In this document: positions 244 through 48,700 of the stretch, piece by piece
Layout of the letters: each line of letters opens with the position of its first letter
Position numbering within the stretch: the stretch's first letter is position 1
From: Siphonodentalium dalli
Taxonomy: Eukaryota; Mollusca; Scaphopoda; Gadilida; Siphonodentaliidae
Reading direction: 5' to 3'
NCBI GenBank assembly: GCA_032622095.1
Contig: CP136064.1
Location: 177,274,247 to 177,338,246 of the forward strand
Length of the DNA: 64,000 nucleotides
The notes under the pieces: generated by a model
The model's input: the letters and a program-made list of their open reading frames with translations, nothing else
What the model was told of the DNA's origin: nothing
Databases searched by the model: none
Position numbers and translations under genes: made by a program

Positions 244-1204
244 GAGACACCACGTGTGACATCCAAATGGTCATTTGTCTCTTTTGGTACTATCATGATT
301 TAGTCGAGAAGAGTCAAGCAGTCGGCACACATGACAAAGCATTTCATTGCCAAATTTTACTTGTTCACCATGTTGCTAATTAGCTTGAAAAGAAAATCAT
401 ATATACGGTACCATTTGTTCTTCAGCATCAGGTATACGCACGTTAACTAAGTGTTTTATTGACTGGATACGCGTAGTCATGACATTCGGCGGTTTCTATT
501 TCACGAATATCAACTTTCAGAGTATATAGCTGTTTCCAGTCTGAATTTTTTGTGGACAATTGTATTTGCCTATGAAAATCAGTCATTGTCTTTTAACTTT
601 CTGAGTTTTATAGATTTTTTGTTAAATTATCATGCCAGGCTAATTAAGTTTCCTGTGGACCATTCTGTTTTGGTATTTGAAACAATGCCATCACATCTAT
701 GACATCTATACATGCGTTGCAAACGGGTTTATTTCAAAATCAGATATGAACTTATGTGAATATTATAGGTCGATTATGAACCTATTTTTGCGACGATATA
801 TGTTGTACCACAAGTTGTACGTAGTGTTTTCTACTTAAATGCACGTACGTGTTGATCATTTGTGTAAGGTCATCTTCTTCCGCTCATCGATCAAACAACC
901 ATGCAGTTTCTTTCGGTCCCTGCTTAATACTAAGACCATGCACATTGTGAAAATGATCAATTTTATCGCAGTTTCGTCCTTGTGCTAAACGAAATTTATG
1001 CATAGTTTCGAATTGAAGCGGACAGCAACTATTTACGCCAACATTTTAATCTCGTGCTTACTGAGACTCGTGGGCATCTATATATACCTAATATAAATTC
1101 ACACTGTGTGCATGGTATAGAACGTTATGTACAACGACCCCATCAGCGCCACTTTGTGGTTAAATTTGCGCTCCACAAAATACACCTAATAATATCCGCT
1201 TCCG

Positions 1205-1865
1205 AAACAAAAAATACAGCCATTTGCACAGTATGGAACAGAAAAGAGCGTTCCGTGTTGATCTATTCCCAATATGGCAACAATAAAGAGCGTTTATTCC
1301 ACTTATGTGCGAAAGATTGTAAACGGTACGAAAATGGCTATAACCATATCGAAAGTATTTTTCAGAGCATATGATGCCGGTATATCAATAGTTCTTGTAT
1401 TTGTAGCGTACACCATTATCAAATACTAAAACATAAACACTCTGTGAATGTCCTATTAAAGGCACGGGCGGTGTTCGTTGCAGAAATATTCATATTTGTT
1501 CAAATCACCATCAACAGAAGGAATATTAAAAAATATATAGTTTTGTTCATATGCCAAACATAATCAGCGCGTAAATATTATATTGTCGTCAAGGCGTACG
1601 ATGGTGTACGTAAAGAAGAGATAGCCTGCTCGTGTTATCTACAGAAGTTGTGCTTCTGGTTACATAACTCAGCGCAATTATATTGGTTAATCACACAAAA
1701 ATGATATAAACGCTCTTTATTATTTCCATATAAGGAAAACAGTAACAAATAATACTCTTTATGTTTACCATATCCGGATCTAAACAAAAGCCAGGAAACA
1801 ACGTTTTTTTTGCTTTTGTTTACATAACAAAGGGAAAATACTGACAATAACATACTGTTTATGCC
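1205..1865. repeat. Diverged short repeats around AATAAAGAGCGTT, in inverted arms
   Basis: The plus strand at 1215-1320 and the minus strand at 1690-1860 both carry diverged repeats containing AATAAAGAGCGTT (for example 1282-1295, and the reverse complement at 1708-1721). Spacings read in frame are 42, 48 and 54 nt. Both strands translate to similar peptides of the type YGNNKERLxHxC. A third array lies on the minus strand near 8850-8935. Equivalent positions in unit 2 are about 10090-10720 and 16590-16680. No known family recognised; the unit 2 frame on the plus strand is interrupted by a 10-bp insertion. Confidence 0.5.
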
Positions 1866-1883
1866 ATATATTTCTGATTGGTA

Positions 1884-3500
1884 CAGGGGGGGGTCGCACA
1901 CAAAAATTCCATATATGAGGCGGGGGTGGGTGGGTCATTTCACCCGGAAAAAATGCGTAAATGACCAAAAATGCAAATTTTTTCCTCCACTTAAAATCAC
2001 TGTTTTTGTGCTCATGTAATCTGTTAATATCAACCATATGACACACTATGCTATTTAAAACATACTAACCAGAACTAACTACCATTTAGGGGTGTATGTA
2101 TGCTGATGTATGTCAAAATTAATGTACCAGATTTCGACGGATGAAAGATATATTATATAAGCATAATTATGAAATGATTACCATCTTCTGTTCTTAATCC
2201 ACATAATGGATATTATTTGTTATCAAGATAAACTTGATGATACAAACAAAAATAACAGTTCCACTATATTCCACTGGTTTAAAACTATAAAACAAAATAA
2301 CTCATACAAAAAGTTCATACTATTTGGATAACAATATGAAAACTTAGCCTTTTGTGATATTAAATCAACCACAGTTATTATTCACAAGTCTAAGCAGTTA
2401 GGTACTGTACATATACATGTAATAAGGTAATATATCTTGGAGTTCCAGTTATTTGACTGCCAATACATATGGTATTGTAATTATTAGTTGTTTGTTCATT
2501 ATTGGTTGCTTTGATATTCAATTTAGGATATAGCAGGATAGAGCAATGTAACTATAAAAGTAGCTTTTGGTATTAAAGTCTCAACTTATTCCATATGCAA
2601 CATAAAGCTAGAATATAAACATGACTAATATGAACTTTGTTCTTGAAACTAATTATAAATCATACTAACCTGGATCAAACTGCACAGGTAATCTATGCAA
2701 CTCTCTTCATGCGAACTTACTCAGAGTCACATATCTCAACTGAACAGTCTGATCCAGGATGCTTGTTCTTATAATGGGTTTCCATGTGATACGTCCAGTA
2801 AACCACATTGCACAGGGGGAACCTACATGTATACAGACGGTTTGTACAAGGTGACCGTGGCTTGGATATCTCTGCTGGCTTTAAACTAAACTTTATACTC
2901 TGATAATAAGTTAATAATACTACCAATTTTTCGCTAATATTGGTATATGTCAATCTGCGAACCAACATGACATACATACATGTATTTATACTGAGCTGCT
3001 GTGAGTGTGACTTTCCTTGGCTTGGGTCCCAGATGAAATTTGTTCTACCCCTATTACTACAGTATTACTATTGGGCCTTGACTCTAAAACATCTTATACT
3101 ATTGTTATATAAAAGAATATGGAGTTATTGAGGATATCAGGAAATGTATTACCTCGTAATTATTATGTTTTATGGCATTATGCCCAATGTTTTTAAGTGC
3201 ATGCGTTCAGCATTTCCACATTTTATACTAATAGAATTATCTCCCTTTAGAGCAGTTTAGAGGTTTACTAAAATGCTGGGAATAGTATTAAATAATAAGA
3301 AATGGAACAATTCTTTGCTAGGCTTTGATTTGGTTTATATTTTATGTTTTTTGTAAGATTTTGGGGGGGTGGGTCCCAAAAATTGGGCGGAAAAAAAAGT
3401 AAAAAATTGCAGGTAGAGGGGTGGTGGGTCCCCGAAAGGGGCAAAAACATTTTTTTCGCCCTATATATGTAAAAAATTTCCGCGACCCCCCCCCCCCCTG
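1884..3500. mobile_element. Non-autonomous DNA transposon, CAGGGGG/CCCCCTG termini
   Basis: The element begins CAGGGGGGGGTCGC and ends GCGACCCCCC...CCTG. The imperfect inverted ends continue for about 35 bp (shared GGTCGC, AAATT, CATATAT and GGCG blocks). It is flanked by attggta at 1877-1883 and 3501-3507. The matching site in unit 2, near 10730, holds a single attggta and no insert, so the boundaries are defined by an empty site. The 7-bp (or 8-bp, if one terminal G is shared) target duplication and CAG...CTG ends suggest a hAT-like element. No transposase is visible in its 1617 bp. Confidence 0.85.
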
Positions 3501-3995
3501 ATTGGTATAAGAATAAGGTCTGTCTATATATTTTACTATTCTTTCTATTTATGGCGGTTTTTGACGGAGGTGCATGAATATTTTAACAGCATATAGGCCT
3601 ACCCACCGCCAACATCTTTAATACTGACATTCAAAGCAAGGCAATCTAAACATATTAGTTTTTCGTTTCTAAGGATAAAATAAAAACAACATAAGGTGGA
3701 AATAAAGCAGACATATACAAAAACCAGGTGGTCAAATTTTCAAATCGAGTTTCCCCACAAAAAAACTAAAAATGGATATAGAACCGATGCGACGCTATCA
3801 GTTCAGGTTATATGTACATGTACACGCTAGGCAGTATCCCACAAGGGGTATGCACCGGACGACATTCCATCTCTTGTATTTATTTGGGTTTGATTATGAA
3901 ATCATATATATTGTCAATATTGTTTTTCAAATAATTTTATTCTGCTTTAACAACCGATAAAATATGTGGAATCAACATAATTTTGAAGATCGAAT

Positions 3996-4725
3996 GAGCC
4001 ATGTCCCCGTTTAAAGATCATACGGGATAACCCCCAGATGGAGATGTGGACCAATGTTCAACCAAATTGCAGAACTGCACAAAGAACAGCGCAGTGCGCT
4101 ATTGAAGCACATACACATAAAAGGAAATTGCCAGTTTATTCATATGGATATTTTAGTTGTAAATGCTACACAAGCTCGGGATAAACCTGTTTACTTAAGT
4201 ACCGTACTATGACAGAAGCTACCGTACCATACAAATAACATGTAGTAATTCCTATTTAGTGACATATGTTTAACGAGAACAATACGTTTTGGTCACATTA
4301 TCTGTTTTAACTATTGAAAGCCAAGACAAAAAACCCCGGTGAGATCGAGCCGCTATACACGAGCCATGTCCCCGTTTAAAGATCATACGGGATAACCCCC
4401 AGATGGAGATGTGGACCAATGTTCAACCAAATTGCAGAACTGCACAAAGAACAGCGCAGTGCGCTATTGAAGCACATACACACAAAAGGAAATTGCCAGT
4501 TTATTCATATGGATATTTTAGTTGTAAATGCTACACAAGCTCGGGATAAACCTGTTTACTTAAGTACCGTACTATGACAGAAGCTACCGTACCATACAAA
4601 TAACATGTAGTAATTCCTATTTAGTGACATATGTTTAACGAGAACAATACGTTTTGGTCACATTATCTGTTTTAACTATTGAAAGCCAAGACAAAAAACC
4701 CCGGTGAGATCGAGCCGCTATACTA
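3996..4725. repeat. 365-bp tandem duplication, present only in unit 1
   Basis: Two adjacent copies start at gagccatgtccccgttt (3996 and 4361) and each run to gatcgagccgctatac. They are nearly identical. Unit 2 has one copy only, starting at 11243, so this duplication arose after the larger one, or collapsed in unit 2. Non-coding. Confidence 0.9.
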
Positions 4726-5646
4726 AATCGTGACATCTATAAGTTTGTAGAGTGTTATATCTTAGCACAAAAATAAAACAGTGAATTTTGAAGAATTTTG
4801 GGGTGAGGGTGTGAAATAATCTCACATAATACAGCACATGTTACGGATAGTGACATATTCAGCTTACTATATATTTCCGCAGTTTTCTAGATTACGTACG
4901 AGATCCCAAGTCAATTAAAACAATATTTATCTGGATCGCCCATTAAGAGGGACAAAACAAAATGAAAAATTGCGCTTTTTTGTCTATTTTCACCATAAAT
5001 ATATCTTGCTATATCTATCAACGAAATTGTGACACTATCATATTGAATATCTAGAAGTATGTAGATTACAATATGTTATCGCAAACAGATCGCGTTTCTC
5101 TCCTTGCATGTCCCATTTTGCCGCATTTTACAAAACCAGGATTTTTTGCTTTGGCACTTAAACCACTCAATATCAACTTTTGCATTTTTGTATATTTCAC
5201 ACCGGCGTCACACCAGTGCGCAATGTCATAACCATCAAAATGATGTTTCACAAGCCTGTGTGTGGTGCCGATGGACTAAACTTTCTGAAATCGGTTCCGC
5301 CCGCTCCACTATAATATATATTACCTACGCTTGCTTGCTTGTTGTGGATTTCCCTCCTTTAAGTCAGGAGCACCCCATTATATTGGGTATATAAAATAAT
5401 GGAAGTAAAAATAAGTCAAATAAAACCAGGTAAAACTGCAATAATGATAAAATAGTTGGTAGAATTGTGGTACTAGTGAGTTAAAAGATTTGTGTGTGTG
5501 TAAGTTACACTTAAGAACTTTTAAGTTGAGCTTTCATATGTACATATATGTACATGTATATTTTGATTGGATAGTTAAAATTGTCGTATTGACAAGAATA
5601 TTTACAGGTAGTTGTTTTGCCTGTACAGCTCGGCTAGTTTGTCATT

Positions 5647-8225
5647 TTATATGTGCGTGTCTGCTTCTGTTTTTAAAGTGTTTACTCTATGCACATGAAT
5701 TGAGTATAAGAAATTTCTTGCCAGTTTTTCAATTTGTTCTTTTTCTATATCGGTAAGGTTCCAGGTTTCTAGTTTTGTGCAGTCTAAGGTTAACTGAGTT
5801 AAGAGTTCTGGTTGATCAATAATGTATTTGTCAGTGGTAGTTTTGAGAGACATAGTTTGAGTTTTTGTATGTAACGATGTCGTTGGTTGCTAGTGTTCGT
5901 ACATTGTGAAATGAAGTGTATTCTGTCCTCATCAGCTAGTTTGCATAGTGGACATATGGCAGAGGTCAGGTTTTGTCTAAATCTTTTTATATTTATTTGT
6001 AGTAAATAAGTGTCTGTCATCAACCATGTTTTTATAATAGCCTTTTTTGTGGCAGCGGGCGAGTATTTTGATGAATCCCATACAAGATGACATTTGCTGC
6101 TGGAATTTTCTTGCAGTTTGATCATTGCTAATGTTGTTTTACTGGAGAACTCTTTGTCATTAATATCATGCCAATATTGGTATATAGCTTTTTTACATAT
6201 TGTTTTCCATTTGTTGGCATCTTCCTTACTGTGGATGGTGTTTATGATATGCAGTGGGTCAGGAAGGGTATATTTGGAAAGTATGTCTCTGACATGTATA
6301 AACCAGCTATGGCTGTTGTCATTATTCATGATAAGTTGTCTTATTGCAAGATCTCGCTCTGCAGAGTTGTGTGTTTTGGCTATATTAATATAGAATGTTG
6401 TAATTTTGAGATCTATAGTGCCTTGGATGGGAATAGCACCAATAAGTGCATTTGTAGCAGCATTTGCTGTGCGTGTTGATAATCTGCAATTGTCTCATGG
6501 TTTTTCGTTGGAAACGTTCGAGTTCATCTATGTCTTTTTTTCATATGTAGGATTTCTATACCATGCAGCATTCTAGGAATGACAAAAGTGTTCCACATTT
6601 GGTATGCTATTACTGGTGATATACCGTTTGTTCCATGTAGCCCTGTACCCATCAAGGAGTATAGGGTTCGTCTGCCCATTGTTATTCGTTTTGGGATATC
6701 TGGGGTATTCGTTGGATTACGATCTACACCTAGGTGTTTGGTGGAGCCTACGATATTAACAGGAGTTCCACCTAGGACAGTTTTTATTTCACCATTCATT
6801 TTTTGTGTAGATGTTTTCATTTGGACAATTTCGCATTTAGTTGCGTTCATTGCGAATCGATCTTTACATGAGTTGTTGTATACAATACTTGTGAGAGTTT
6901 GTAAATCAGATGTTGTTTTTGCTAAGATAGCTACATCATCTGCACAGGTGGGGCTGTTATATCAATTGTGCCAATTTTAAACACAGCTGCATTGTTACTT
7001 AGCTGATTTAGCATGTCGTTGTTAAATCTTTTATAGAGCATTGCTGATAATTTAGCCCCTTGTCTTATTCCTTGGTGAAGTAGTATACCTGAGGAGTATG
7101 ATCCACCCCATTTTACCTTTGTATTCGCCTCATGATGTAATGAATTTACAAGTAGCCATAGGTCGCTGTGGATCCCATCAATGAAAAGTTTTCTCAGTAG
7201 GCTTTTATGCCATACAACGTCAAATGCTTTTTCAGCATCCAGGGTTTCTAATATTAATTTCTCATTTATGTCTTTGCTTTCATTGAATGCTTCAGTTATC
7301 ATAAGCCCAGCAACTAGGGGTGATGTGCCTTGAGTGAAGCCACGTTGCATTTTATTTTGCGATGGTAATAGTATGTTGTCTAGTTTGTCTTGCAGGGTTG
7401 CTTCTAGGATTTTACATATTATGGAGCTGATAGTTATGCCCCTGTAATTCCCTGGTTTTGTTGGGTCTTTGTCCTTTTTTGGTACAGGTGTTAATATGCC
7501 GATTTTTATTTCTTTTGGCACTTCTCGTTTTTCATATATAGTGTTTATGATGTTCATGATTATTGGGGCAGTTTCTTCTATGCTATATTTGAGGTGTTCA
7601 GCCGTAATTCCAGCATAGTCAGCTGCTTTATTTAGTTTGAGCTTATTGACAATTGTTTTAATTTCATGCAGTGTGACTGGTTCTAAAGATGGTGTATTAG
7701 CACGACATATTTGTTCAATAGCTTCAATATCAGCCGAGACTTGTTTGTGGAATGTATCATCAAATCTATCGGCAGTTTTTGGTTCTGACAGTTTTTTGAA
7801 GTGTTTAAACCACCCATCCATCATCTGTTCGGCACCATATTGGTGTCCATCTATTTCAATATACTCAGTGACTACACTCTTGGTGAGCCTTTGTTTGTTT
7901 ATAAGTTTATAGAATAGCACTTGATCATTAGATGCATTGGCTTGAGAGATTTCATCATATAGCTGGGTTCTCTCTGCAGCTATTTGTTGCCTTTGTGTAC
8001 ATCTTAACTTCTTTTTAGTGGCCATTTTTGCCATTTTAAGTGGATTATTTGTGTCAACTGGCCTACCTGCCGTTTTCCATTGATAATGGGCCTTTTTACT
8101 TTCTTGTATCGCACTGGCTATGCTTGGATTCCATTGTTTTTGACCATTGGAGCTTTTTTTTATGCCTTTTGGCAGGTGTGGCTTTCTCTGCTGCGCTTAT
8201 TATCATTTGGCCAAACTTCACGTAA
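5647..8225 (-). pseudogene. Non-LTR reverse transcriptase, frameshifted copy
   Basis: Reading right to left, this is the same protein as 12544-15081, split into pieces (6931-8034, 6524-6850, 5799-6329, 5647-5853) by single-base and small indels. The RT core is recognisable: a KAADYAGITAE block, PGNYRGI, RGFTQGTSP, LDAEKAFD (motif A), and QGIRQG. A one-base loss in a G run near 6950 breaks the frame immediately before the catalytic CADD motif. Further slips occur in the T run near 6540 and near 5845. Unlike the unit 2 copy it keeps the 15 residues after motif A (VVWHKSLL...). The endonuclease half of the element is absent upstream. Confidence 0.9.
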
Positions 8226-8240
8226 ACTTGTACGGCGAAT

Positions 8241-8264
8241 ATAGATAGATAGATAGATAGATAG
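8241..8264. repeat. (ATAG)n microsatellite at the 5' junction of the RT relic
   Basis: Six ATAG units abut the point where similarity to the RT reading frame stops. On the minus strand, the sequence entering the repeat reads AATAAAAGC followed by TATC repeats, which looks like the 3' tail of another transcript or retroelement. The unit 2 equivalent is at 15105-15129. Confidence 0.8.
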
Positions 8265-11200
8265 CTTTTATTGAAACCAAATGCATGCACTGTACATACA
8301 ATGGACCCCGAGAGGTAGGCCTATGACTAGAAAATAAACATTGGTATATTTTACCGAAACAAACAAAGCATATTATATTAATCCATGCAGTCAAGTAGTT
8401 TCCGGATCCTGATTAGTCAAGATTTGTTAACTGTAAATATCTAACTGTTTGAAATTGAATGGTGCACTGCCAAATGTATGGTACGTATCAACTATACTAT
8501 ATAATATATTGTAAGTCTGCAGTCCGATCACTTCTTCCCACGGTGCATGCAACAAGATGGGAGTTGACAGGTCCCAACTTTTATTGCAAAATTAATAATA
8601 GAAGTCATTAGGCAGGGTAACTACTTGACATTTGAATATGGATAATATAAAAAGGTTCTTATACAAGTATGCACTGTATAATCTGCAAGTATATGTCACT
8701 TTGAGAAATATACGCCGTATACAATAATTGTAACCTGTGGTGGCCCCATGTTTCCGTATATTAATTACCGTTATAAATCCCCTCATTTTGTAAAAACATA
8801 AACATTGGACTACGGGGGTGGGGGGTAGCCTAGACCACTTTTCAACTGTTCACACAAACGCTCTTTATTAATACCATCAGATAAATGAAAACATAAGCGC
8901 CCTTTGTATTGTTGTAACACACTGCACAAGGTATAAACCGCAATTACTCGACTGGTATTTACGGTAAATAATACAACGCGCTCATTGGCTGCACAACTTA
9001 TTTATTATTCAGTGACCCGAGGTCACGCGTGTGCTCTGTTCTCACTCATGTGAATGACTGAGTCACCGATACAGGAAGTGAAAATGACAACAAATGGGTG
9101 ATGAGACACCACGTGTGACATCCAAATGGTCATTTGTCTCTTTTGGTACTATCATGATTTAGTCGAGAAGAGTCAAGCAGTCGGCACACATGACAAAGCA
9201 TTTCATTGCCAAATTTTACTTGTTCACCATGTTGCTAATTAGCTTGAAAAGAAAATCATATATACCATTTGTTCTTCAGCATCAGGTATACGCACGTTAA
9301 CTAAGTGTTTTATTGACTGGATACGCGTAGTCATGACATTCGGCGGTTTCTATTTCACGAATATCAACTTTCAGAGTATATATAGCTGTTTCCAGTCTGA
9401 ATTTTTTGTGGACAATTGTATTTGCCTATGAAAATCAGTCATTGTCTTTTAACTTTCTGAGTTTTATAGATTTTTTGTTAAATTATCATGCCAGGCTAAT
9501 TAAGTTTCCTGTGGACCATTCTGTTTTGGTATTTGAAACAATGCCATCACATCTATGACATCTATACATGCGTTGCAAACGGGTTTATTTCAAAATCAGA
9601 TATGAACTTATGTGAATATTATAGGTCGATTATGAACCTATTTTTTTTTTGCGACGATATATGTTGTACCACAAGTTGTACGTAGTGTTTTCTACTTAAA
9701 TGCACGTACGTGTTGATCATTTGTGTAAGGTCATCTTCTTCCGCTCATCGATCAAACAACCATGCAGTTCCTTTCGGTCCCTGCTTAATACTAAGACCAT
9801 GCAATATGTGAAAATGATCAATTTTATCGCAGTTTCGTCCTTGTGCTAAACGAAATTTATGCATAGTTTCGAATTGAAGCGGACAGCAACTATTTACGCC
9901 AACATTTTAATCTCGTGCTTACTGAGACTCGTGGGCATCTATATATACCTAATATAAATTCACACTGTGTGCATGGTATAGAACGTTATGTACAACGACC
10001 CCATCAGCGCCACTTTGTGGTTAAATTTGCGCTCCACAAAATACACCTAATAATATCCGCTTCCGACAGCTTCCGGAACAAAAAATACAGCCATTTGCAC
10101 AGTATGGAACAGAAAAGAGCGTTCCGTGTTGATCTATTCCCAATATGGTAACAATAAAGAGCGTTTATTCCACTTATGTGCGAAAGATTGTAAACGGTAC
10201 GAAAATGGCTATAACCATATCGAAAGTATTTTTCAGAGCATATGATGCCGGTATATCAATAGTTCTTGTATTTGTAGCGTACACCATTATCAAATACTAA
10301 AACATAAACACTCTGTGAATGTCCTATTAAAGGCACGGGCGGTGTTCGTTGCAGAAATATTCATATTTGTTCAAATCACCATTAAAAAATATATAGTTTT
10401 GTTCATATGCCAAACATAATCAGCGCGTAAATATTATATTGTCGTCAAGGCGTACGATGGTGTACGTAAAGAAGAGATAGCCTGCTCGTGTTATCTACAG
10501 AAGTTGTGCTTCTGGTTACATAACTCAGCGCAATTATATTGGTTAATCACACAAAAATGATATAAACGCTCTTTATTATTTCCATATAAAGAAAACAGTA
10601 ACAAATAACACTCTTTATGTTTACCATATCCGGATCTAAACAAAAGCCAGGAAACAACGTTTTTTTTGCTTTTGTTTTCATAACAAAGGGAAAATACTGA
10701 CAATAACATACTGTTTATGCCATATATTTCTGATTGGTATAAGAATAAGGTCTGTCTATATATTTTACTATTCTTTCTATTTATGGCGGTTTTTGACGGA
10801 GGTGCATGAATATTTTAACAGCATATAGGCCTACCCACCGCCAACACCGCCCGTATCTTTAATACTGACATTCAAAGCAAGGCAATCTAAACATATTAGT
10901 TTTTCGTTTCCAAGGATAAAATAAAAACAACATAAGGTGGAAATAAAGCAGACATATACAAAAACCAGGTGGTCAAATTTTCAAATCGAGTTTCCCCACA
11001 AAAAAACAAAAAATGGATATAGAACCGATGCGACGCTATCAGTTCAAGTTCAGGTTATATGTACATGTACACGCTAGGCAGTATCCCACAAGGGGTATGC
11101 ACCGGACGACATTCCATCTCTTGTATTTATTTGGGTTTGATTATGAAATCATATATATTGTCAATATTGTTTTTCAAATAATTTTATTCTGCTTTAACAA

Positions 11201-12543
11201 CCGATAAAATATGTGGAATCAACATAATTTTGAAGATCGAATGAGCCATGTCCCCGTTTAAAGATCATACGGGATAACCCCCAGATGGAGATGTGGACCA
11301 ATGTTCAACCAAATTGCAGAACTGCACAAAGAACAGCGCAGTGCGCTATTGAAGCACATACACATAAAAGGAAATTGCCAGTTTATTCATATGGATATTT
11401 TAGTTGTAAATGCTACACAAGCTCGGGATAAACCTGTTTACTTAAGTACCGTACTATGACAGAAGCTACCGTACCATACAAATAACATGTAGTAATTCCT
11501 ATTTAGTGACATATGTTTAACGAGAACAATACGTTTTGGTCACATTATCTGTTTTAACTATTGAAAGCCAAGACAAAAAACCCCGGTGAGATCGAGCCGC
11601 TATACTAAATCGTGACATCTATAAGTTTGTAGAGTGTTATATCTTAGCACAAAAATAAAACAGTGAATTTTGAAGAATTTTGGGGTGAGGGTGTGAAATA
11701 ATCTCACATAATACAGCACATGTTACGGATAGTGACATATTCAGCTTACTATATATTTCCGCAGTTTTCTAGATTACGTACGAGATCCCAAGTCAATTAA
11801 AACAATATTTATCTGGATCGCCCATTAAGAGGGACAAAACAAAATGAAAAATTGCGCTTTTTTGTCTATTTTCACCATAAATATATCTTGCTATATCTAT
11901 CAACGAAATTGTGACACTATCATATTGAATATCTAGAAGTATGTAGATTACAATATGTTATCGCAAACAGATCGCGTTTCTCTCCTTGCATGTCCCATTT
12001 TGCCGCATTTTACAAAACCAGGATTTTTTGCTTTGGCACTTAAACCACTCAATATCAACTTTTGCATTTTTGTATATTTCACACCGGCGTCACCGGGTCA
12101 TACCAGTGCGCAATGTCATAACCATCAAAATGATGTTTCACAAGCCTGTGTGTGGTGCCGATGGACTAAACTTTCTGAAATCGGTTCCGCCCGCTCCACT
12201 ATAATATATATATTACCTAGGCTTGCTTGCTTGTTGTCGATTTCCCTCCTTTAAGTGAGGAGCACCCCATTATATTGGGTATATAAAATAATGGAAGTAA
12301 AAATAAGTCAAATAAAACCAGGTAAAAATGCAATAATGATAAAATAGTTGGTAGAATTGTGGTACTAGTGAGTTAAAAGATTTGTGTGTGTGTAAGTTAC
12401 ACTTAAGAACTTTTAAGTTGAGCTTTCATATGTACATGTATATTTTTGTTTTGTTTTTAAGATTGGTATAGTTAAAATTGTCGTATTGACAAGAATATTT
12501 ACAGGTAGTTGTTTTGCCTGTACAGCTCGGCTAGTTTGTCATT

Positions 12544-15081
12544 TTATATGTGCTTGTCTGCTTCTGTTTTTAAAGTGTTTACTCTATGCACATGAATTGA
12601 GTATAAGAAATTTCTTGCCAGTTTTTCAATTTGTTCTTTTTCTATATCGGTAAGGTTCCAGGTTTCTAGTTTTGTGCAGTCTAAGGTTAACTGAGTTAAG
12701 AGTTCTGGTTGATCAATAATGTATTTGTCAGTGGTAGTTTTTGAGAGACATAGTTTGAGTTTTTGTATGTAACGATGTCGTTGGTTGCTAGTGTTCGTAC
12801 ATTGTGAAATGAAGTGTATTCTGTCCTCATCAGCTAGTTTGCATAGTGGACATATGGCAGAGGTCAGGTTTTGTCTAAATCTTTTTCTATTTATTTGTAG
12901 TAAATAAGTGTCTGTCATCAACCATGTTTTTATAATAGCCTTTTTTGTGGCAGCGGGCGAGTATTTTGATGAATCCCATACAAGATGACATTTGCTGCTG
13001 GAATTTTCTTGCAGTTTGATCATTGCTAATGTTGTTTTACTGGAGAACTCTTTGTCATTAATATCATGCCAATATTGGTATATAGCTTTTTTACATATTG
13101 TTTTCCATTTGTTGGCATCTTCCTTACTGTGGATGGTGTTTATGATATGCAGTGGGTCAGGAAGGGTATATTTGGAAAGTATGTCTCTGACATGTATAAA
13201 CCAGCTATGGCTGTTATCATTTTTCATGATAAGTTGTCTTATTGCAAGATCTCGCTCTGCAGAGTTGTGTGTTTTGGCTATATTAATATAGAATGTTGTA
13301 ATTTTGAGATCTATAGTGCCTTGGATGGGAATAGCACCAATAAGTGCATTTGTAGCAGCATTTGCTGTGCGTGTTGATAAACTCTGCAATTGTCTCATGG
13401 TATTTCGTTGGAAACGTTCGAGTTCATCTATGTCTTTTTTTTTCATATGTAGGATTTCTATACCATGCAGCATTCTAGGAATGACAAAAGTGTTCCACAT
13501 TTGGTATGCTATTACTGGTGATATACCGTTTGTTCCATGTAGCCCTGTACCCATCAAGGAGTATAGGGTTCGTCTGCCCATTGTTATTCGTTTTGGGATA
13601 TCTGGGGTATTCGTTGGATTACGATCTACACCTAGGTGTTTGGTGGAGCCTACGATATTAACAGGAGTTCCACCTAGGACAGTTTTTATTTCACCATTCA
13701 TTTTTTGTGTAGATGTTTTCATTTGGACAATTTCGCATTTAGTTGCGTTCATTGCGAATCGATCTTTACATGAGTTGTTGTATACAATACTTGTGAGAGT
13801 TTGTAAATCAGATGTTGTTTTTGCTAAGATGGCTACATCATCTGCACAGGTGGGGGCTGTTATATCAATTGTGCCAATTTTAAACCCAGCTGCATTGTTA
13901 CTTAGCTGATTTAGCATGTCGTTGTTAAATCTTTTATAGAGCATTGCTGATAATTTAGCCCCTTGTCTTATTCCTTGGTGAAGTAGTATACCTGAGGAGT
14001 ATGATCCACCCCATTTTACCTTTGTATTCGCCTCATGATGTAATGAATTTACAAGTAGCCATAGGTCGCTGTGGATCCCGTCAAATGCTTTTTCAGCATC
14101 CAGGGTTTCTAATATTAATTTCTCATTTATGTCTTTGCTTTCATTGAATGCTTCAGTTATCATAAGCCCAGCAACTAGGGGTGATGTGCCTTGAGTGAAG
14201 CCACGTTGCATTTTATTTTGCGATGGTAATAGTATGTTGTCTAGTTTGTTTTGCAGGGTTGCTTCTAGGATTTTACATATTATGGAGCTGATAGTTATGC
14301 CCCTGTAATTCCCTGGTTTTGTTGGGTCTTTGTCCTTTTTTGGTACAGGTGTTAATATGCCGATTTTTATTTCTTTTGGCACTTCTCGTTTTTCATATAT
14401 AGTGTTTATGATGTTCATGATTATTGGGGCAGTTTCTTCTATGCTATATTTGAGTAGTTCAGCCGTAATTCCAGCATAGTCAGCTGCTTTATTTAGTTTG
14501 AGCTTATTGACAATTGTTTTAATTTCATGCAGTGTGACTGGTTCTAAAGATGGTGTATTAGCACGACATATTTGTTCAATAGCTTCAATATCAGCCGAGA
14601 CTTGTTTGTGGAATGTATCATCAAATCTATCGGCAGTTTTTGGTTCTGACAGTTTTTTGAAGTGTTTAAACCACCCATCCATCATCTGTTCGGCACCATA
14701 TTGGTGTCCATCTATTTCAATATACTCAGTGACTACACTCTTGGTGAGCCTTTGTTTGTTTATAAGTTTATAGAATAGCACTTGATCATTAGATGCATTG
14801 GCTTGAGAGATTTCATCATATAGCTGGGTTCTCTCTGCAGCTATTTGTTGCCTTTGTGTACATCTTAACTTCTTTTTAGTGGCCATTTTTGCCATTTTAA
14901 ATGGATTATTTGTGTCAACTGGCCTACCTGCCGTTTTCCATTGATAATGGGCCTTTTTACTTTCTTGTATCGCACTGGCTATGCTTGGATTCCATTGTTT
15001 TTGACCATTGGAGCTTTTTTCATGCCTTTTGGCAGGTGTGGCTTTCTCTGCTGCGCTTATTATCATTTGGCCAAACTTCAC
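12544..15081 (-). CDS. Non-LTR retrotransposon reverse transcriptase, 5'-truncated, 845 codons
   Basis: Reverse transcriptase of a LINE-type element, which copies element RNA into DNA at the target site. In order: linker between endonuclease and RT (residues about 1-190), RT fingers and palm with PGNYRGI (about 257-263), RGFTQGTSP (about 293-301), motif A LDAEKAFD (327-334), QGIRQG (about 369-374), and motif C CADD (412-415, cysteine where F or Y is usual). The C-terminal region has a CX2CX8HX4C knuckle (about 744-761). The apurinic endonuclease domain is absent. The first codon is GTG and the frame is open upstream, so the start is not meaningful. Compared with the unit 1 copy, 15 residues after motif A are missing through a 45-bp in-frame deletion, so activity is doubtful. 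The clade was not determined. Confidence 0.88.
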   Translation of the reverse strand: MKFGQMIISAAEKATPAKRHEKSSNGQKQWNPSIASAIQESKKAHYQWKTAGRPVDTNNPFKMAKMATKKKLRCTQRQQIAAERTQLYDEISQANASNDQVLFYKLINKQRLTKSVVTEYIEIDGHQYGAEQMMDGWFKHFKKLSEPKTADRFDDTFHKQVSADIEAIEQICRANTPSLEPVTLHEIKTIVNKLKLNKAADYAGITAELLKYSIEETAPIIMNIINTIYEKREVPKEIKIGILTPVPKKDKDPTKPGNYRGITISSIICKILEATLQNKLDNILLPSQNKMQRGFTQGTSPLVAGLMITEAFNESKDINEKLILETLDAEKAFDGIHSDLWLLVNSLHHEANTKVKWGGSYSSGILLHQGIRQGAKLSAMLYKRFNNDMLNQLSNNAAGFKIGTIDITAPTCADDVAILAKTTSDLQTLTSIVYNNSCKDRFAMNATKCEIVQMKTSTQKMNGEIKTVLGGTPVNIVGSTKHLGVDRNPTNTPDIPKRITMGRRTLYSLMGTGLHGTNGISPVIAYQMWNTFVIPRMLHGIEILHMKKKDIDELERFQRNTMRQLQSLSTRTANAATNALIGAIPIQGTIDLKITTFYINIAKTHNSAERDLAIRQLIMKNDNSHSWFIHVRDILSKYTLPDPLHIINTIHSKEDANKWKTICKKAIYQYWHDINDKEFSSKTTLAMIKLQENSSSKCHLVWDSSKYSPAATKKAIIKTWLMTDTYLLQINRKRFRQNLTSAICPLCKLADEDRIHFISQCTNTSNQRHRYIQKLKLCLSKTTTDKYIIDQPELLTQLTLDCTKLETWNLTDIEKEQIEKLARNFLYSIHVHRVNTLKTEADKHI

Positions 15082-15104
15082 GTAAACTTGCAGTGTACGG
15101 CGAA

Positions 15105-15129
15105 TATAGATAGATAGATAGATAGATAG
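15105..15129. repeat. (ATAG)n microsatellite, unit 2 copy
   Basis: Six ATAG units between the RT reading frame and a minus-strand AATAAAAGC motif, as at 8241-8264. The adjoining spacer differs by a 4-bp insertion (cagt) from unit 1. Confidence 0.8.
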
Positions 15130-15184
15130 CTTTTATTGAAACCAAATGCATGCACTGTACATACAATGGACCCCGAGAGGTAGG

Positions 15185-16059
15185 GGATACCCGGGCAAAG
15201 CGGATCGCCCGGGCAAAGCCGATCACCTTTATTATTTCAATACTATCAAATTATCCCTTATCTATCTGTATTTTAGAATAAGGTCGTTTCGTGTTGGGTT
15301 AGTTTTTATACATGTCCACAGAGAACAAGGTATACTAAAATTTTGTAGCCCAGTAGAACATTTTCGTCGACATTTTACGATTTTACCAAATTTATAATTA
15401 TTGTGCGTTTGCGCATATCTGTTGCGCAGGTCGATGATCGCATACCCATCTACCCGAATAAATGTTGTCGGTGTCTTAGGCAATACATGTTTGGAATAAG
15501 ACAATATGTCAATTTGCTAAATTCGATATGACACCCGCGTAATGACCCGGACTGTAAAAAGATGTGCTGTGGGCAAAAGCGGATCGGGCAAAGCGGATCA
15601 TTCATAATATGACTAACTTCCGGTACACATGCGTAGATTAAGTGAATTTGGACAATTTGAATAAGATGGGTCGACAAAACTCGTGCCTTGTCGGAGCATG
15701 TCCATAATTGAAATATTTGAACGTTTGAAAAAACGCGATTTTAATTATTTGCAATAAATATGTATATTTGTCATAAATAAAACTGAAAAGTATAGGATTA
15801 GTTTATTAGTATTGCATTTTCAGAAGGATTCGTTTGCTGATCCGCTTTGCCCGATGTGGTGATCCGATTTGCCCGACGGCCGGGCAAAGCGGATCAAAAT
15901 TAAAAATCACCATAGCAACCAAACCAATAGATGCATCTGAATGCATCCTACGCCAAATGTTATACCATCATGATTAGAAACTGACAGTGCTAATATTTAT
16001 GATTGCCGGTTGCATTTTGTACATGAAAACCTTACGTGATTCGCTTTGCCCGGGTCTCC
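15185..16059. mobile_element. 875-bp TIR element with eight GGGCAAAGCGGATC-type motifs
   Basis: The termini are inverted: GGATACCCGGGCAAAGCG on the left, and GGAGACCCGGGCAAAGCG read from the right. Unit 1 has the uninterrupted site (gaggtaggcctatgac), so the insert splits an AGG/CCT palindrome without an obvious target duplication. Motif copies on the plus strand: 15193-15206, 15211-15224, 15571-15585 (one extra A), 15586-15599 and 15882-15895. On the minus strand: 15839-15852, 15861-15874 and 16038-16051. There is no coding region of note. The family is unknown to me; the repeated motif is likely a protein-binding site, for example for a transposase supplied in trans (inference). Confidence 0.85.
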
Positions 16060-16840
16060 CCTATGACTAGAAAATAAACATTGGTATATTTTACCGAAAC
16101 AAACAAAGCATATTATATTAATCCATGCAGTCAAGTAGTTTCCGGATCCTGATTAGTCAAGATTTGTTAACTGTAAATATCTAACTGTTTGAAATTGAAT
16201 GCTGCACTGCCAAATGTATGGTACGTATCAACTATACTATATAATATATTGTAAGTCTGCAGTCCGATCACTTCTTCCCACAGTGCATGCAACAAGATGG
16301 GAGTTGACAGGTCCCAACTTTTATTGCAAATTAATAATAGAAGTCATTAGGCAGGGTAACTACTTGACATTTGAATATGGATAATATAAAAAGGTTCTTA
16401 TACAAGTATGCACTGTATAATCTGCAAGTATATGTCACTTTGAGAAATATACGCCGTAGACAATAATTGTAACCTGTGGTGGCCCCATGTTTCCGTATAT
16501 TAATTACCGTTATAAATCCCCTCATTTTGTAAAAACATAAACATTGGACTACGGGGGTGGGGGGTAGCCTAGACCACTTTCAACTGTTCACACAAACGCT
16601 CTTTATTAATACCATCAGATAAATGAAAACATAAGCGCCCTTTGTATTGTTGTAACCCACTGCACAAAGTATAAACCGCAATTACTCGACTGGTATTTAC
16701 GGTAAATAATACAACGCGCTCATTGGCTGCACAACTTATTTATTATTCAGTGACCCGAGGTCACGCGTGTGCTCTGTTCTCACTCATGTGAATGACTGAG
16801 TCACCGATACAGGAAGTGAAAATGACAACAAATGGGTGAT

Positions 16841-17290
16841 GGTTTTGAAATGGTTTCCGCATACATTTCCGATTATTGCACAGAAACATTGTTTAAATGA
16901 ACGATAATAGATAATCCAGTAAGCTACCGGTAAGACTTAGTTATGCCATAGATTGAGATTTCTGACATTTAAATAGCAGGTTGGCTTTGAGAACGGAACT
17001 GGTGAGTGATGAGAATTGACAGTTCAGTGGTGTTTTGTGACACTGGACCTGCTATCAGTGCTGAAGATTAGATAACCTGATAAGTGTGCGCCAAAGGCAG
17101 ATTATCATTGTCTATCGATACTGACACATGGGGTGCAGTCGTATTCGAATTATTGTTTTAATCATTCATAAATGGTGGAGATCAAAGACATACAATCAAC
17201 TGATCAAGAACACCCAGATGTCTTCTTCACCAGTGTTCACTGTCATAAATTGCTAATCCTGCATGTGTCACTCATGCTAATGCCGAAGTA
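16841..17290. other. Single-copy sequence after the duplication
   Basis: Nothing recognisable as a gene. It separates unit 2 from a foldback element. Confidence 0.4.
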
Positions 17291-18023: not shown

Positions 18024-18390
18024 GTTCCGTGGTTTTAGTCAATTAGTGCTACAGGTCAAAGTTCTGGAGTACAGTAATGCCCTAAATAATCAACTCCTTA
18101 AGTTAACCACAGCAGAATTATGGCTAATTTTTCAGGATTTAGTCAGAAATATGGCTTGTTGCCATTTATCAGAAAGCTCTTACTGAATGGCAACAAGCCA
18201 TATTTCTGACTAAATTCTGAAAAATTAGCCATAATTCTGCTGTGGTTAAGGAGTCGATTATTAGGGCACTACTGTAGCATTTCCAATTCCATATATGGAA
18301 GTCATGAATGTTCAATTTTAAGCTCCATACTAGTATGTGGAAATGCTACTCCAGAACTTACTTTCAACCTGTAGCACTAAAACCATGGAA
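18024..18390. repeat. Foldback element interrupted by a MITE
   Basis: The left arm, ttccgtggttttag...ttctggagta (18024-18071) continuing as gcatttcc at 18277, is inverted at 18336-18390. The MITE at 18072-18274 has inserted at a TA inside the left arm; removing it restores the hairpin. Confidence 0.75.
18072..18274. mobile_element. TA-flanked foldback MITE, family A, copy 1
   Basis: Inverted ends beginning CAGTAATGCCCTAAATAATC, flanked by TA on both sides. Both halves are complementary over nearly the whole length, with a short loop around the aagctctta stretch. TA target and CAGT ends are typical of Tc1/mariner-mobilised MITEs. Confidence 0.85.
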
Positions 18391-23171: not shown

Positions 23172-24184
23172 CATGATAAAATTGTGTCCCACAAAATATT
23201 TGATATTATTATGTCATGAAATGATGAGAAAACTTAAAAAAAAAATTCAGTCTTACTTGTCAACCCCTAACACACACCAGCAGCCTACATATATCAAACT
23301 CTCACCTTATGATTTTATCGCTGATTTTGCTTTATAATTATATAGTCATGAAAGAGAAATGTTGTTTGTTCGAGTCAGCATTTGAGGGGGGGGGGGTATT
23401 TATACCTCTTTAAATAAATTCTGAAAGCGCTGCTCACTCAGGCTCACTGGGCAAATCCTTTGCTTTCAAAAATGTTACTGCCCACATTTTATACTGGGCC
23501 ACCTTTCATCTGCACATAGTTTTTCACTGGGTTAGTGTTAAAGGCGATGACAGACTTGATAGAACAAAATCTTGATCAATACACTAAACACACTGCAGTG
23601 TTATCTTGTTTACTTTGGCAAATCCCTTTGTTAAAACTAATGTTCAAAGAATGTTTTGTGGATCCATATATTTACCTTGTACATTTTACTGCTGTGAGAG
23701 ATGTTTTAACTGTCCAAATTCTTCATTCTCTTGAGACATTGTTGTCATAAATAGCATCTAGCTACAAATTACCCTCAACCCACAAACCAACATTCATGTG
23801 TGATTACAATGCACATCATAGCATGAAACATTGTCATGCATTTATGTCATGTGAGTCAGTCAAGTTGGTCAGTCAAGGATGGTAGTTTTGGGCTTGCTGC
23901 CAGTCCACTGATAATATATTCATCAAGAGATTTTGGACTCACATATTTTTGGACTTTCTTTTCTTTCTCTTGAATGGCTTTAATTGATCAATATCACTGT
24001 TAATATGACTAAAGGATTATTTAATAGCTATTAGTACAAGCACCAGGAGTTACTATCTCAACAGTTTTATGACCAACTTAATGGGATTCTTTAGCTAATG
24101 GCTTAAAATGTGGCTCTGCAAGCATGACCTTGTCAAGATAGAGTAGGTCCGGTACAGCTACAGGTATGGAATAACTTTTTTATA
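23172..24184. other. No gene recognised
   Basis: A G-run occurs near 23385. Open frames here are short and featureless. Confidence 0.4.
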
Positions 24185-24379
24185 CAGTAATGCAATAAAT
24201 AATCGACTCCTTAACCACAGCAGAATTATGGGTAATTTTTCAGGATTTAGTTGTAAATATGGCTTGTTGCCATTCATCGGAAAGCTCTCAGTGATGAATG
24301 GCAACAAGCCATATTTCTGACTAAATCCTGAAAAATTACTCTGCTGTGGTTAAGGAGTCGATTAGTTAGGGCAATACTG
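24185..24379. mobile_element. Family A MITE, copy 2
   Basis: CAGTAATGCAATAAATAATC at the left, its inverse at the right, TA on both flanks, near-complete palindrome. Confidence 0.85.
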
Positions 24380-24381
24380 TA

Positions 24382-26221: not shown

Positions 26222-29030
26222 TTATACTTCCATGTTTTAACATGGAAGTATATTGTAATTCTTCTGGCTTTTCTTATTATTATTTTTTTTCTTATTAATT
26301 ATTCCAATAACATGCTTATATCTCAAGAACGGCTGGGCCGATTTACCTGCTGTTTTCTGCTTCAGTATATAACTTTGGAAGTTCTCTGAAAATAGCCTAT
26401 TGAGAATTTCGTCCGACCTTGACCTTCGGAGTTATCGCCATTTTCCTAAAATGACTTGCAAAATCGATGTTTGATTTCTTATATCTTCGGATTTGAAATT
26501 TCGTACCTGCATAGTCATTGAGTATACGCAGTCGATGCACAAATAGGGAATTTCGTCTGACCTTGACCTTTGGAAAGAACACTCTTTATCTGTTTTATTA
26601 TTGTTCCAGTATCTCCTCCGAAACGGCTTGAGTTATCTTGTTCGGACTTTTTTAGTTATTTGCGCATTTATGTGTGTTATGTACCACCGAAAAATTATAG
26701 GGTTCGCACTTCCGGTTTAAAAGTTCGCTACTGGTCGAAGCATAAAACAACTCTCTTTATAGGAAATCCAGAAGGGCTTGAGATATCGAGTTGGGACTTT
26801 TTGCGTGATGTGCAGCAAACTCTGCGCTCTCTAATGATATATATAGTTAACGGATTTCACTTCCGGTTTGGCAGAACAGGTGTGTGGGTATGTATCTCAA
26901 AACTATTTTGGCGGAGATTTTGATGAAATTTGGTGGACATAATAGTTGTCGCTTACCACTACTCCGCTCAGATTTTTAAAATCGGACTTAAACTTCTCGA
27001 GTTATGGCTGCTTAAAAACCTGATTTTTATGGGGTTTTCAAACCCCTAGAATGACTTGCAAAATTGCAAAATCGATGTTTGATTTTTTTATACCGTCGAA
27101 ACGGCTTGGCCAATTGATTTGAAATTTTGTACCTGTATAGCCATTGAGCATTCGCAGTCGATGCACAAATAAGGAATTTCGTCTGACCTTGACCTTTGGA
27201 AACATCGCTCTTTATCTGTATCTGTTTTATTGTTGTTAACCTATCTCCTCCTAAATGGCTTGAGATATCTGGTTCGGACTTTTTTCGTTATTTGCGCATT
27301 CACATGTGTTACAAACCACCAAAAAATAATAGGGGTCGCTTTTCCGGTTTAAAAGTTTACCCTGGGTCGAATAATAAAAGAACGCTCTTTATACGAAATC
27401 CAGAACGGCTTGAGATATTGAGTTGGGACTTTTTGCGTTATGTGCATCCAACTGTGCGATGTATAAAGATATATAGAGTTAACTGGATTTCACTTCCGGT
27501 TCTGGAGAACGGGCGTGTGGGTATGTATCTGAAAACTATTTTGGCGCAGATTGTGGTGAAATTTGGTTTTTATAATCTTTGGTTGCCGTTGATCAATATT
27601 CCACTCGAATTTTTCAAATCGGACATTAACTTATCGAGATATGGCTGCATAAATACCTGGTTTTTCAGGGTTTTGGGGGGGTTTTCGCGCCACCAGAATT
27701 ACTTGGAACTGGAGGTTTGATTTCTTATATCGTCAAAACGGCTTTGCCAATTGATTTGAATTTTCGTACCTGCATATACATTGAGTACACGCAGTCCAGT
27801 CGCTAACATGAAAGATTGTATGATCTTGACCTTAGGAAACAACGCTCTTTAGCTGTGTTATTGTTGTTTGTGTATCTTATACGAAACGGCTTGACATATC
27901 GGGTTCCGACTTTTTTCATTATTTGCGCCTGTATGTGTGTTCTAAAATACTGAAAAAATGATAGGGGTCGCACTTCCGGTTAAACAGTTTGCTGCTGGTC
28001 GAAGGATAAAATAACGCTCTTTATACGGAATCCAGAAGGGCTTGAGATATTGAGTTGGGACTTTTTGCATTATGTGCATCAGCATCTGCTCTCTATAATG
28101 ATATACTACCTATATACGAGCGCCTGCGGCGCATAAGATACTATGGGTGGCGGGATGGGACGGTGGGTACTTACTACCTATATATGAGCGCCTGCGACGC
28201 ATAAGATAATTTGGGTGGCCGGATGGGATTGTGGGTGGGTACTACCTATATACGAACGCCTGCGGCGAATAAGATACTATGGGTGGCAAGATGGGGTGGT
28301 GGGTGGGTACTACATATATACGAGCACCTGCGGCGCATAAGATACTATGGATGGTGGGATGAGGTGGTGGGTGGGTACTACATATATACGAGTGCTTGCG
28401 GCGCATAAGATACTATAGGTGGCGGGATGGGATGGTGGGTGGATACTACCTATATACGCGGGCCTGCGGCGCATAAGATACTATGGGTGGCGGGATGGGG
28501 TAGTGGGTGGTGGGTACTACCTATATACGAGCGACTAAATCACATACGATACTATGGGTGGCGGGATGGGATGGTGGATGGTTACTACCTATAAACGAGT
28601 GCCTGCGGCGCATAAGATACTATGGGTGGCGGGATGGGATGATGGGTGGGTACTACATATATACGAGCGCCTGCGGCGCATAAGATATTATGGGTGGCGG
28701 GATGGGGTGGTGGGTTGTTTACTACCTATATACGAGCGCCTGCGACGCATAATATACTATGGGTGGCGGGATGGGATGGTGGGTGGGTACTACCTACATA
28801 TATATGATAAATTTTACTGATTTCACTTCCGTTTTGGGAGCACGGGCGTGTTTGTATGTATCTCAAATTGTTTTTGGTGCAGATTTTTATGGAATTTGGT
28901 GCATAGAATCTGTGGTTGCCGAGTATTACTATGAGCTACAGTATCACCATACCGATATGTGTCTCCTGAAAACTGATGCTTTATCAGGTGACACAATTTC
29001 CGTCATTGGCGAACATGGAAGTATCGAAAT
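26222..29030. repeat. Composite repeat: three diverged units of about 610-640 bp
   Basis: Starts with a 12-bp-arm palindrome (tatacttccatg, 26223-26252) and ends near gaacatggaagtatcg (29011). Units begin near 26454, 27064 and 27707 with cgatgtttgattt or similar, and contain cttgaccttnggaaa, gaaacggcttgagatat and cacttccggtt. The third unit is interrupted at 28104-28803 by a minisatellite and resumes with tttcacttccgttttgg. Open frames inside it, such as 27196-27720, are not recognisable proteins. Confidence 0.75.
28104..28803. repeat. Minisatellite, about 10 units of about 70 bp
   Basis: Repeat core: ctacctatatacgagcgcc, then tgcggcgcataagatactat, then gggtggcgggatggg. The unit is GT/GC-rich and strand-asymmetric. 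It interrupts the third unit of the surrounding composite repeat. Frames through it (MGGGMGWW...) are artefacts. Confidence 0.9.
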
Positions 29031-29910: not shown

Positions 29911-30573
29911 AAAAACAACAATGAAAATATATATATATTTTTTTAAATAGTAAAAATTTAATCTCTCGATCGATCGAGAGATCATGGGTTGAATTATGGG
30001 CTGAGTTTAGAACCACTTAATTGGGGGAGGGATTCTGGATTTGACCCCCAACTTTGGTATTCAGTGAAAAATCTGTTGTAATTAGACCAACAATTGCCCA
30101 CAATTAGAATATTTTATCTTTGAGGGAGAGCTTGAAGTACCAGTTGTAAAATATAGTTTGGTTCAGTTGGGAGTCTCATGGCTATAAGTCAGGGGTTTGC
30201 AATTGGAAATTTCAAGTTTAATTCCCTCTGCATGTCAAAGAAGACCCTCTAGCTATGTCCATGTTTATAACTACTTGTTTTAAAGTGATTTGACAAGTAT
30301 TGACTATTGTAGTTTTCAGAGTCCAGGCCTCTCTGTCTTGAAAGTCAGGTGAGCACTCCAGTCATTGACTGTCTTGTTTATTGTTGTGACTGAATCAATT
30401 TATTGGATAATATATGTACAGTACATCGTTGCCTGTATATGGCACAGGTGATAACAAATCAAAATAAACAATATAATGAACATAAAAAACTTGGCGGGGA
30501 TGTGACCTACTGGCCGTATTCCATGCCCAGGTGAAAAATAAAGGCATATATATGCTGCACAACATCTTGTTAT
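29911..30573. other. Non-coding; 22-bp perfect palindrome
   Basis: Positions 29961-29982 form a perfect 22-bp palindrome with arms ATCTCTCGATC. Nothing else was recognised. Confidence 0.5.
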
Positions 30574-31160
30574 TATACCCCCGACAACGAAGTTGTGGGG
30601 GGGGTATACTGGAATCAGTTCGTCCGTCTGTCTGTCATCCATCCGTTGTCCGTCCATGGACACAAATTTGTCCGGAGTTTTTCTCAGTCGTTTTATGATC
30701 ATTTTCCATGAAACTTGGCACAGATATCATCCACCATGGGAACCTGTGCACCTGCGATTATGTTGTCTGTTGGACTTTTTTTGGTAGAGTTATCCCCCTT
30801 TTTCGACTTAGAAATGTTTTGTAACATGCATAATTTTGTCTGAGCTTTTATTCCTACATTTTTAGGTCAATTTTTTAAAAACTTGGCACAGATATTTAGT
30901 ACCATGGGAACCTGTGCACCTGCGATTATAACATCTGTCCGACATTTTTTTCGACTTAGAAATTGTTTTGCAACATTTATAATTTTGTCAGAGCTTTTAT
31001 TCCTACATTTTTAGGTCAATGTTTTTTAATCTTGGCACTGATATTTAGTACCATGAGAACCTGTGCACCTGCGATTATGACGTCTGTCTGACTTTTTGTT
31101 GTGGAGTTAGTCCCCTTTTTCAACTATTTTTGCACCCATTGGGACAGTCACACCTCTAGT
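30574..31160. repeat. Dispersed repeat E (ACCCCC...GGGGGTATAC), copy 1
   Basis: Starts at tacccccgacaacgaagttg with GTCCGTC tracts, contains several tandem blocks of about 170-190 bp around catgggaacctgtgcacctg, and ends cattgggacagtcacacctc. Four further copies or fragments lie at 41926, 42691, 54636 and 55500. Confidence 0.8.
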
Positions 31161-33414: not shown

Positions 33415-33813
33415 ACATGGCAATTGTTTCATGTTTTTGTAGTCATTTGGTGTTGTGAGCGATTAATTTTGCCAATAGCTCCTATCAGCAGTACATACAG
33501 TAATGCCCTTAATAATCGACTCCTTAACCACAGCAGATTATGAGTAATTTTTCAGGATTTAGTCGGAAATATGGCTTGTTGCCATTCATCGGAAAGCTCT
33601 CAGTGAGAGTGATGTTATCTCAGTGAGAGCTTTCCGATGAATGGCAACAAGCCATATTTCCGACTAAATCCTGAAAAGTTACCCATAATTCTGCTGTGGT
33701 TGAGGAGTCGATTATTTAGGGCATTATTGTACATGGCAATTGTTTCATGTTTTTGTGGTCATTTAGTGTTGTGAGCGATTAATTTTGCCAATAGCTCCTA
33801 TCAGCAGTGCATA
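33415..33813. repeat. 83-bp direct repeat flanking a MITE
   Basis: acatggcaattgtttcatg through to cagcagtacata (33415-33497) recurs at 33731-33813 with few changes. A family A MITE fills exactly the space between. Confidence 0.85.
33498..33729. mobile_element. Family A MITE, copy 3
   Basis: CAGTAATGCCCTTAATAATC at left, inverse with GCATTATTG at right, flanked by TA; longest family member here (232 bp). Confidence 0.85.
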
Positions 33814-35824: not shown

Positions 35825-36046
35825 AAACTAAAACTGATGATTTTATGATTGTGATATTCTCAAGTCAGGAGCGTTAAAGAAAAATGGATGGAGGAACAGA
35901 ATGAAGGAAGAGATATGAGGAGCTTCTCGACGGTTATAATACTGGTGACGTCTAATTTGCAAGTCTGTGATGTGATTTGAAATAATATGTAGGCCCTCAG
36001 CCTTACAAATTCTGTAAATAGTTCCGTAGTGCATTTAGTGGAAAAA
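35825..36046 (+). other. Likely 5' untranslated part of the FYB-like gene's exon
   Basis: Lies between an acceptor-like ctttcag (ending 35824) and the chosen ATG. It contains short upstream reading frames, for example ATG at 35884 (six codons) and ATG at 35901 (five codons), and an in-frame TAG at 35990. These fit a leader rather than coding sequence. The true 5' end is not visible. Confidence 0.55.
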
Positions 36047-37625: not shown

Positions 37626-37734
37626 GTGAGAGTAAATTCTCACTCATTTTTAGTTCAACTTTACTTTGTAAAGTTTAAGCTATTGCCGTCCGTCATCCTA
37701 GCGTTCGTCCACCTGGCTGTGCATCTATCAACAA

Positions 37735-46183: not shown

Positions 46184-46442
46184 TTAACCCTTCCAAGACT
46201 AGCTTCCTGAAAATTTGTGAAATCCATGTTCCTAGTGCATTCTCTTATATATGTGAGTCTCCTATGGGAGACTCACATAAAAAGAGAATACATTGGCCTA
46301 ACAATATTTACCTTGACCTTGTAAACCAGTGCATTCTCGTATATATGCGAGGCTCCCTATGGGAGACTCACATATATAAGAGAATGCACTGACATTGGAT
46401 CTTTAATGCTGCACAGCGCAGCTCTCATCATGAAAGGGTTAA
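46184..46442. mobile_element. Family C MITE, copy 2
   Basis: ttaacccttccaagactagc at left, tcatgaaagggttaa at right. Two internal hairpins of cttatatatgcgag and gggagactcacatatataag type. Confidence 0.8.
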
Positions 46443-48533: not shown

Positions 48534-48700
48534 CAGTAATGCTCTAAGTAATCGACTTCTTAACCACAGCAGAATTATGGGTAACTTTTCAGGCTTTAGT
48601 CGGAAATATGGCTTGTTGCCATTCATCGGAAAGTTCTCAGGGGAGAAAGTTACCCATAATTCTGCTGTGGTTAAGAAGTCGATTACTTAGAGCATTACTG
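48534..48700. mobile_element. Family A MITE, copy 6
   Basis: CAGTAATGCTCTAAGTAATC at left with its inverse at right, TA flanks. Confidence 0.85.

Follow-up and report, generated by a model that had tools for sequence, protein, structure and literature searches.

An 879-bp transposon-like element carrying an eight-copy motif array, and a probable excision footprint at its counterpart site

Excision of Tc1/mariner-type transposons leaves a footprint made of two copies of the target-site duplication (TSD) around a few transposon bases (PMC3408717, PMC2874221). Published footprint lengths are 2-4 bp in Tc1/mariner (PMC7913693) and 0-4 bp in the pogo element Passer (PMC9976928); Sleeping Beauty leaves CAG, which derives from a single end (PMC8151067). 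Sleeping Beauty also has inner and outer direct repeats, and a terminal inverted repeat (TIR) of about 230 bp (PMC8151067). Other cut-and-paste systems are organized differently. In Spm, the TNPA protein binds subterminal repeats (PMC2613891), and TSDs reported for the CACTA/Spm-like (CMC) group measure 2-4 bp (PMC4482050). Spy elements, described among the PHIS transposons, prefer AAATTT and make no TSD (PMC11304231). In several PHIS groups the TIR starts with G, GG or GGG (PMC4482050), and the PHIS targets named in two accounts are ANT, CWG, CTNAG and AAATTT (PMC4482050, PMC11304231).

The window analysed here, a stretch of 64,000 bp, contains two adjoining units: unit 1 (about 244-9102) and unit 2 (about 9103-16841). 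Their alignment shows 39 mismatches in 6,806 aligned columns, with 23 gaps. The pair may represent either a true tandem duplication or two haplotypes set side by side by the assembler. One alignment gap, of 875 bp, falls at 15185-16059; the insert is in unit 2, and unit 1 has none.

The units differ at other places too. Unit 1 contains a 1,624-bp insertion (1874-3497) that is missing from unit 2, with ends of the CAGGGG...CCCCTG type. It has a direct repeat, CTGATTGGTA, and 7-8 bp of this repeat may be its TSD; it is a second transposon-like insertion between the units, perhaps of hAT type. A 365-bp segment that is duplicated in direct tandem in unit 1 (3996-4723, 99% matches) is single in unit 2. 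A reverse transcriptase frame of 845 amino acids is open in unit 2 (12544-15081, minus strand; RVT_1, E 1.6e-20; zf-RVT only below cut-off), and its unit 1 counterpart (5799-8034, minus strand) is broken into pieces in different frames. This frame, together with the palindromic MITE-like repeats described below, gives the DNA a eukaryotic character, and its source is probably an animal.

The ends of the 875-bp insert lie slightly beyond the alignment gap. The inverted repeat continues outward through GG (15183-15184) and CC (16060-16061) and then reaches TA on either side; for this reason the ends are placed at 15183 and 16061. So defined, the element is real and well delimited: 879 bp, 39% G+C, with GGGGA termini and a 24-bp TIR, GGGGANACCCGGGCAAAGCGRATC, in which 22 of 24 positions match between the two ends. 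The predicted fold of both ends is ordinary (z -0.59 and 0.39). The longest stop-free stretch is 96 codons, on the minus strand, and the element contains no plausible gene. The features that define the element and its counterpart site are:

15181-15182, no strand: left TA, probable target-site duplication, read from the sequence
15183-15206, plus strand: left terminal inverted repeat, GGGGATACCCGGGCAAAGCGGATC, 22/24 against the right end
16038-16061, minus strand: right terminal inverted repeat, GGGGAGACCCGGGCAAAGCGAATC, 22/24 against the left end
16062-16063, no strand: right TA, probable target-site duplication, read from the sequence
8316-8323, no strand: TAGGCCTA, probable excision footprint in unit 1 (TA, left-end GG, right-end CC, TA)

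TA lies immediately outside both ends, and the flanks of 15183-16061 contain no direct repeat longer than TA. TSDs are about 8 bp long in hAT and about 9 bp in Mutator elements. Neither group fits an element with nothing beyond TA flanking it, nor does piggyBac, whose TSD is TTAA (PMC3408717). The sole alternative site, in unit 1, holds 4 further bp and reads GAGG-TA-GGCC-TA-TGAC: two TAs enclosing two bases of each element end. Non-autonomous elements of the Tc1/mariner (IS630-Tc1-mariner) group share several of these features: TIRs between flanking TAs, the lack of a plausible gene, and a site that, once vacated, holds two TAs enclosing a few bases of the element. We regard it as rather probable that this is a non-autonomous, TA-targeting, cut-and-paste DNA transposon of Tc1/mariner-like kind, bound at its motifs (below) by a transposase or accessory protein, and excised from unit 1. 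The outward run of the TIR match to TA on both sides supports this reading, as does presence in one unit and absence from another that differs from it at only 39 of 6,806 aligned bases.

Excision from unit 1 is preferred over insertion into unit 2 because TA-GGCC-TA fits published footprints and because TANN|NNTA palindromes are rare, with one centred on just 0.16% of the window's cut points (a pattern picked after it had been seen). This preference is drawn from one copy and one alternative site at one locus, with no outgroup, which counts against the reading. So does the footprint itself, in that it keeps two bases of each end, unlike the CAG of Sleeping Beauty. The ordinary fold of both ends and the lack of a transposase among the 16 frames put to Pfam (below) also weigh against the reading, as does a layout of motif copies unlike the inner and outer direct repeats of Sleeping Beauty.

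The opposite polarity would make unit 1 a true empty site, with the element having entered unit 2 at the centre of the palindrome TAGG|CCTA without any target duplication, in the manner of Spy. That course of events seems unlikely, although a literal reading of the alignment suits it: unit 2 is unit 1 plus exactly 875 bp here, an insertion of Spy type would account for the missing duplication in a palindrome, and the initial G, GG or GGG of several PHIS TIRs recalls the ends seen here. It requires either a chance extension of the TIR match over four further positions with TA outermost (seen at 0.16% of the window's cut points, against 0.63% for a palindrome of any kind with an arm of at least 4 bp) or an undescribed palindrome preference, and the site differs from each of the PHIS targets named above. 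Membership of Spy itself was rejected: the site is TAGGCCTA where Spy prefers AAATTT, and lack of a TSD is possible only in the 875-bp frame.

The longer ends and the proposed excision also alter how an earlier note on this DNA should be read. Its presence/absence claim stands (the element occurs in unit 2 only), and in the 875-bp frame the insert is, as it said, cleanly absent from unit 1 and devoid of a target duplication. With the longer ends, neither description applies: unit 1 retains 4 extra bp, GGCC, and TA flanks the element on both sides. The inverted ends that the note reported are present but sit 2 bp further out on each side. Likewise, the split AGG/CCT palindrome exists, and is better read as an excision footprint, TA-GGCC-TA, in unit 1 than as a target that was not duplicated.

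The second distinguishing feature is internal. Searching the window for GGGCAAAGCGGATC at up to 2 mismatches returned eight matches, all within the insert; the nearest approach elsewhere in the window was four matches with 3 mismatches each. Chance alone predicts far fewer (mean 0.007, maximum 1, in 300 first-order Markov simulations of the element). Five copies lie on the plus strand (15193, 15211, 15571, 15586, 15882) and three on the minus strand (15839, 15861, 16038), exactly the tally of the 14-bp motif in the earlier note:

15193-15206, plus strand: motif copy 1, exact; begins at base 11, counted from the left end
15211-15224, plus strand: motif copy 2, 1 mismatch; forms a direct pair with copy 1
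15571-15585, plus strand: motif copy 3, one extra A; matched at 15572, true start 15571
15586-15599, plus strand: motif copy 4, exact; forms a direct pair with copy 3
15839-15852, minus strand: motif copy 5, exact
15861-15874, minus strand: motif copy 6, 1 mismatch
15882-15895, plus strand: motif copy 7, exact; opposite in orientation to copies 5 and 6
16038-16051, minus strand: motif copy 8, 1 mismatch; begins at base 11, counted from the right end

From left to right, the order is thus two plus copies at the left end, two plus copies in the middle, minus, minus and plus to the right of the middle, and one minus copy at the right end. Mean pairwise identity among the eight copies is 88% across 16 columns (-1 to 14), and drops to 25% and 26% in the 17 columns on either side (some of these flanks include a neighbouring copy). 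Since identity falls to chance outside the motif, the copies are discrete sites and not relics of longer duplicated segments, as expected of binding sites. A perfect inverted repeat with 18-bp arms (15583-15600 and 15838-15855) takes in copies 4 and 5. In the fold predicted for 15836-15900 as single-strand DNA, copy 7 pairs with copy 5, and none of 200 shuffled sequences was as stable (z -6.0).

Several known systems use repeated protein-binding sites, and the array can be compared with each. Like the Sleeping Beauty IR/DR arrangement, this element has more than one copy of a presumed binding site. It departs from that arrangement in having the second left copy right next to the outer one, in the pairing and inversion of its internal copies, and in a TIR of 24 bp instead of the roughly 230 bp reported there (PMC8151067). 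Tc1/mariner elements in general differ from this one in its GGGGA ends and in its eight motif copies, scattered over the whole length. A GGGGA terminus is not known to be typical of Tc1/mariner, and this too counts against the kinship proposed here.

A short motif in both orientations, presumably a protein-binding array, recalls instead the subterminal repeats bound by TNPA, and the element could be a non-autonomous member of a CMC system in which a separate TnpA-type protein binds many such repeats. The 2-4 bp TSDs reported for CMC elements would accommodate a TA duplication. This origin is nonetheless quite improbable: the ends are GGGGA, not CACTA, so that membership fails on the termini, and the array is not restricted to subterminal regions, with 167 bp or more separating five of the eight copies from each end.

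An explanation that dispenses with transposition altogether, by local rearrangement or by filler DNA with a fortuitous motif array, would agree with the single copy seen in the 64-kb window, no second copy being known. It is extremely improbable. It leaves unexplained the TIRs with outermost motifs equidistant from both ends, and it must also face the presence/absence in a single step and the further transposon-like insertion, flanked by its own direct repeat, by which these two units differ.

In the favoured account of a TA-targeting cut-and-paste transposon, the 24-bp TIRs (22 matching) and the equal distance of the motif from both ends fall into place. The element would have been present in the ancestor of both units and later excised from unit 1, leaving TA-GGCC-TA. 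Its transposase must come from elsewhere, since the element has no plausible gene. That transposase, or an accessory protein of its system, would bind the 15-16-bp motif CGGGCAAAGCGGATC(A). Presence in both TIRs makes the motif the natural recognition site: the copy at base 11 of each end would be the site recognized, and the internal pairs would be extra sites. These internal copies might help the ends to pair, or might titrate the protein. The earlier note proposed a TIR element to which a transposase or host factor binds at multiple sites; this is the best-supported reading, with the binding itself putative.

If this account is right, the adjacent units preserve the element in place and, beside it, the natural scar of its excision: evidence of recent mobility that fixes the ends to the base. 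Moreover, the array of eight 15-16-bp sites offers a handle for finding the family's transposase, and lets one ask whether scattered internal sites aid end pairing.

The search for a transposase and for relatives had a defined reach. Pfam gave no transposase match among 16 queried frames (6 of 7 initial ORFs plus 10 more, two of them overlapping), a part of the 79 stop-to-stop frames of at least 85 amino acids in the window; reverse transcriptase domains did match. Within the window, the only matches to the insert are the insert itself, its own motif copies and a pair of short segments, 18 and 21 bp long (E 0.12 and E 0.42), that are probably chance. Rfam, at gathering thresholds, had no match in the window.

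Pattern searches of IMG/VR returned 4 stretches with a 17-mer and 35 with a 16-mer, one already in the 17-mer set; two motifs in tandem and the TIR each gave 0 matches. In GTDB genomes, the TIR gave 3 matches and two motifs in tandem 0. When motif clusters were sought at all 41 IMG/VR and GTDB loci so obtained, one (L037) had three motif-like matches within 1 kb, and the other 40 had at most two. That locus was rejected as a relative: it looks like a repeat-rich coding gene, judged by eye from untranslated sequence of part of the locus. The remaining IMG/VR and GTDB matches are probably chance. Comparison of 15150-16090 with phage and plasmid collections by blastn (E limit 0.01) gave no match, and no coding relative was found in the viral, bacterial, archaeal and plasmid collections searched. 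Misses in collections of this kind carry little information on a family from animals or other eukaryotes.

A literature search gave no match to four motif strings and none for non-autonomous elements with motif arrays; matches to four 12-mers were taken as chance. This comparison was made without Repbase or Dfam, and family novelty is hence not established. The element most likely belongs to a known kind of transposon. We consider it very improbable that it represents a new superfamily-level group of eukaryotic DNA transposons, one that recognizes itself through a dedicated 15-16-bp motif array along the whole element and that either inserts into the TAGGCCTA palindrome or leaves it on excision.

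The window also contains other repeats. Palindromic elements with TACAGTAATGC-like ends lie at 18070-18276, 24183-24381, 33496-33731, 48530-48704 (where the ends were read) and 63745-63907 (known only as a blastn match to 48532-48702); these are probably TA-flanked, mariner-like MITEs. Another palindrome, at 46234-46390, has different ends. Tandem arrays include one at 28104-28800, with about 10 copies of a 68-bp unit, and two of 3 copies each of a unit of about 170 bp (42044-42540 and 42829-43329), which also match 30567-31125. Finally, a frame of 549 amino acids at 36029-37678 (plus strand), rich in S, K and N and with no Pfam match at E 0.001, may be a host-gene exon.
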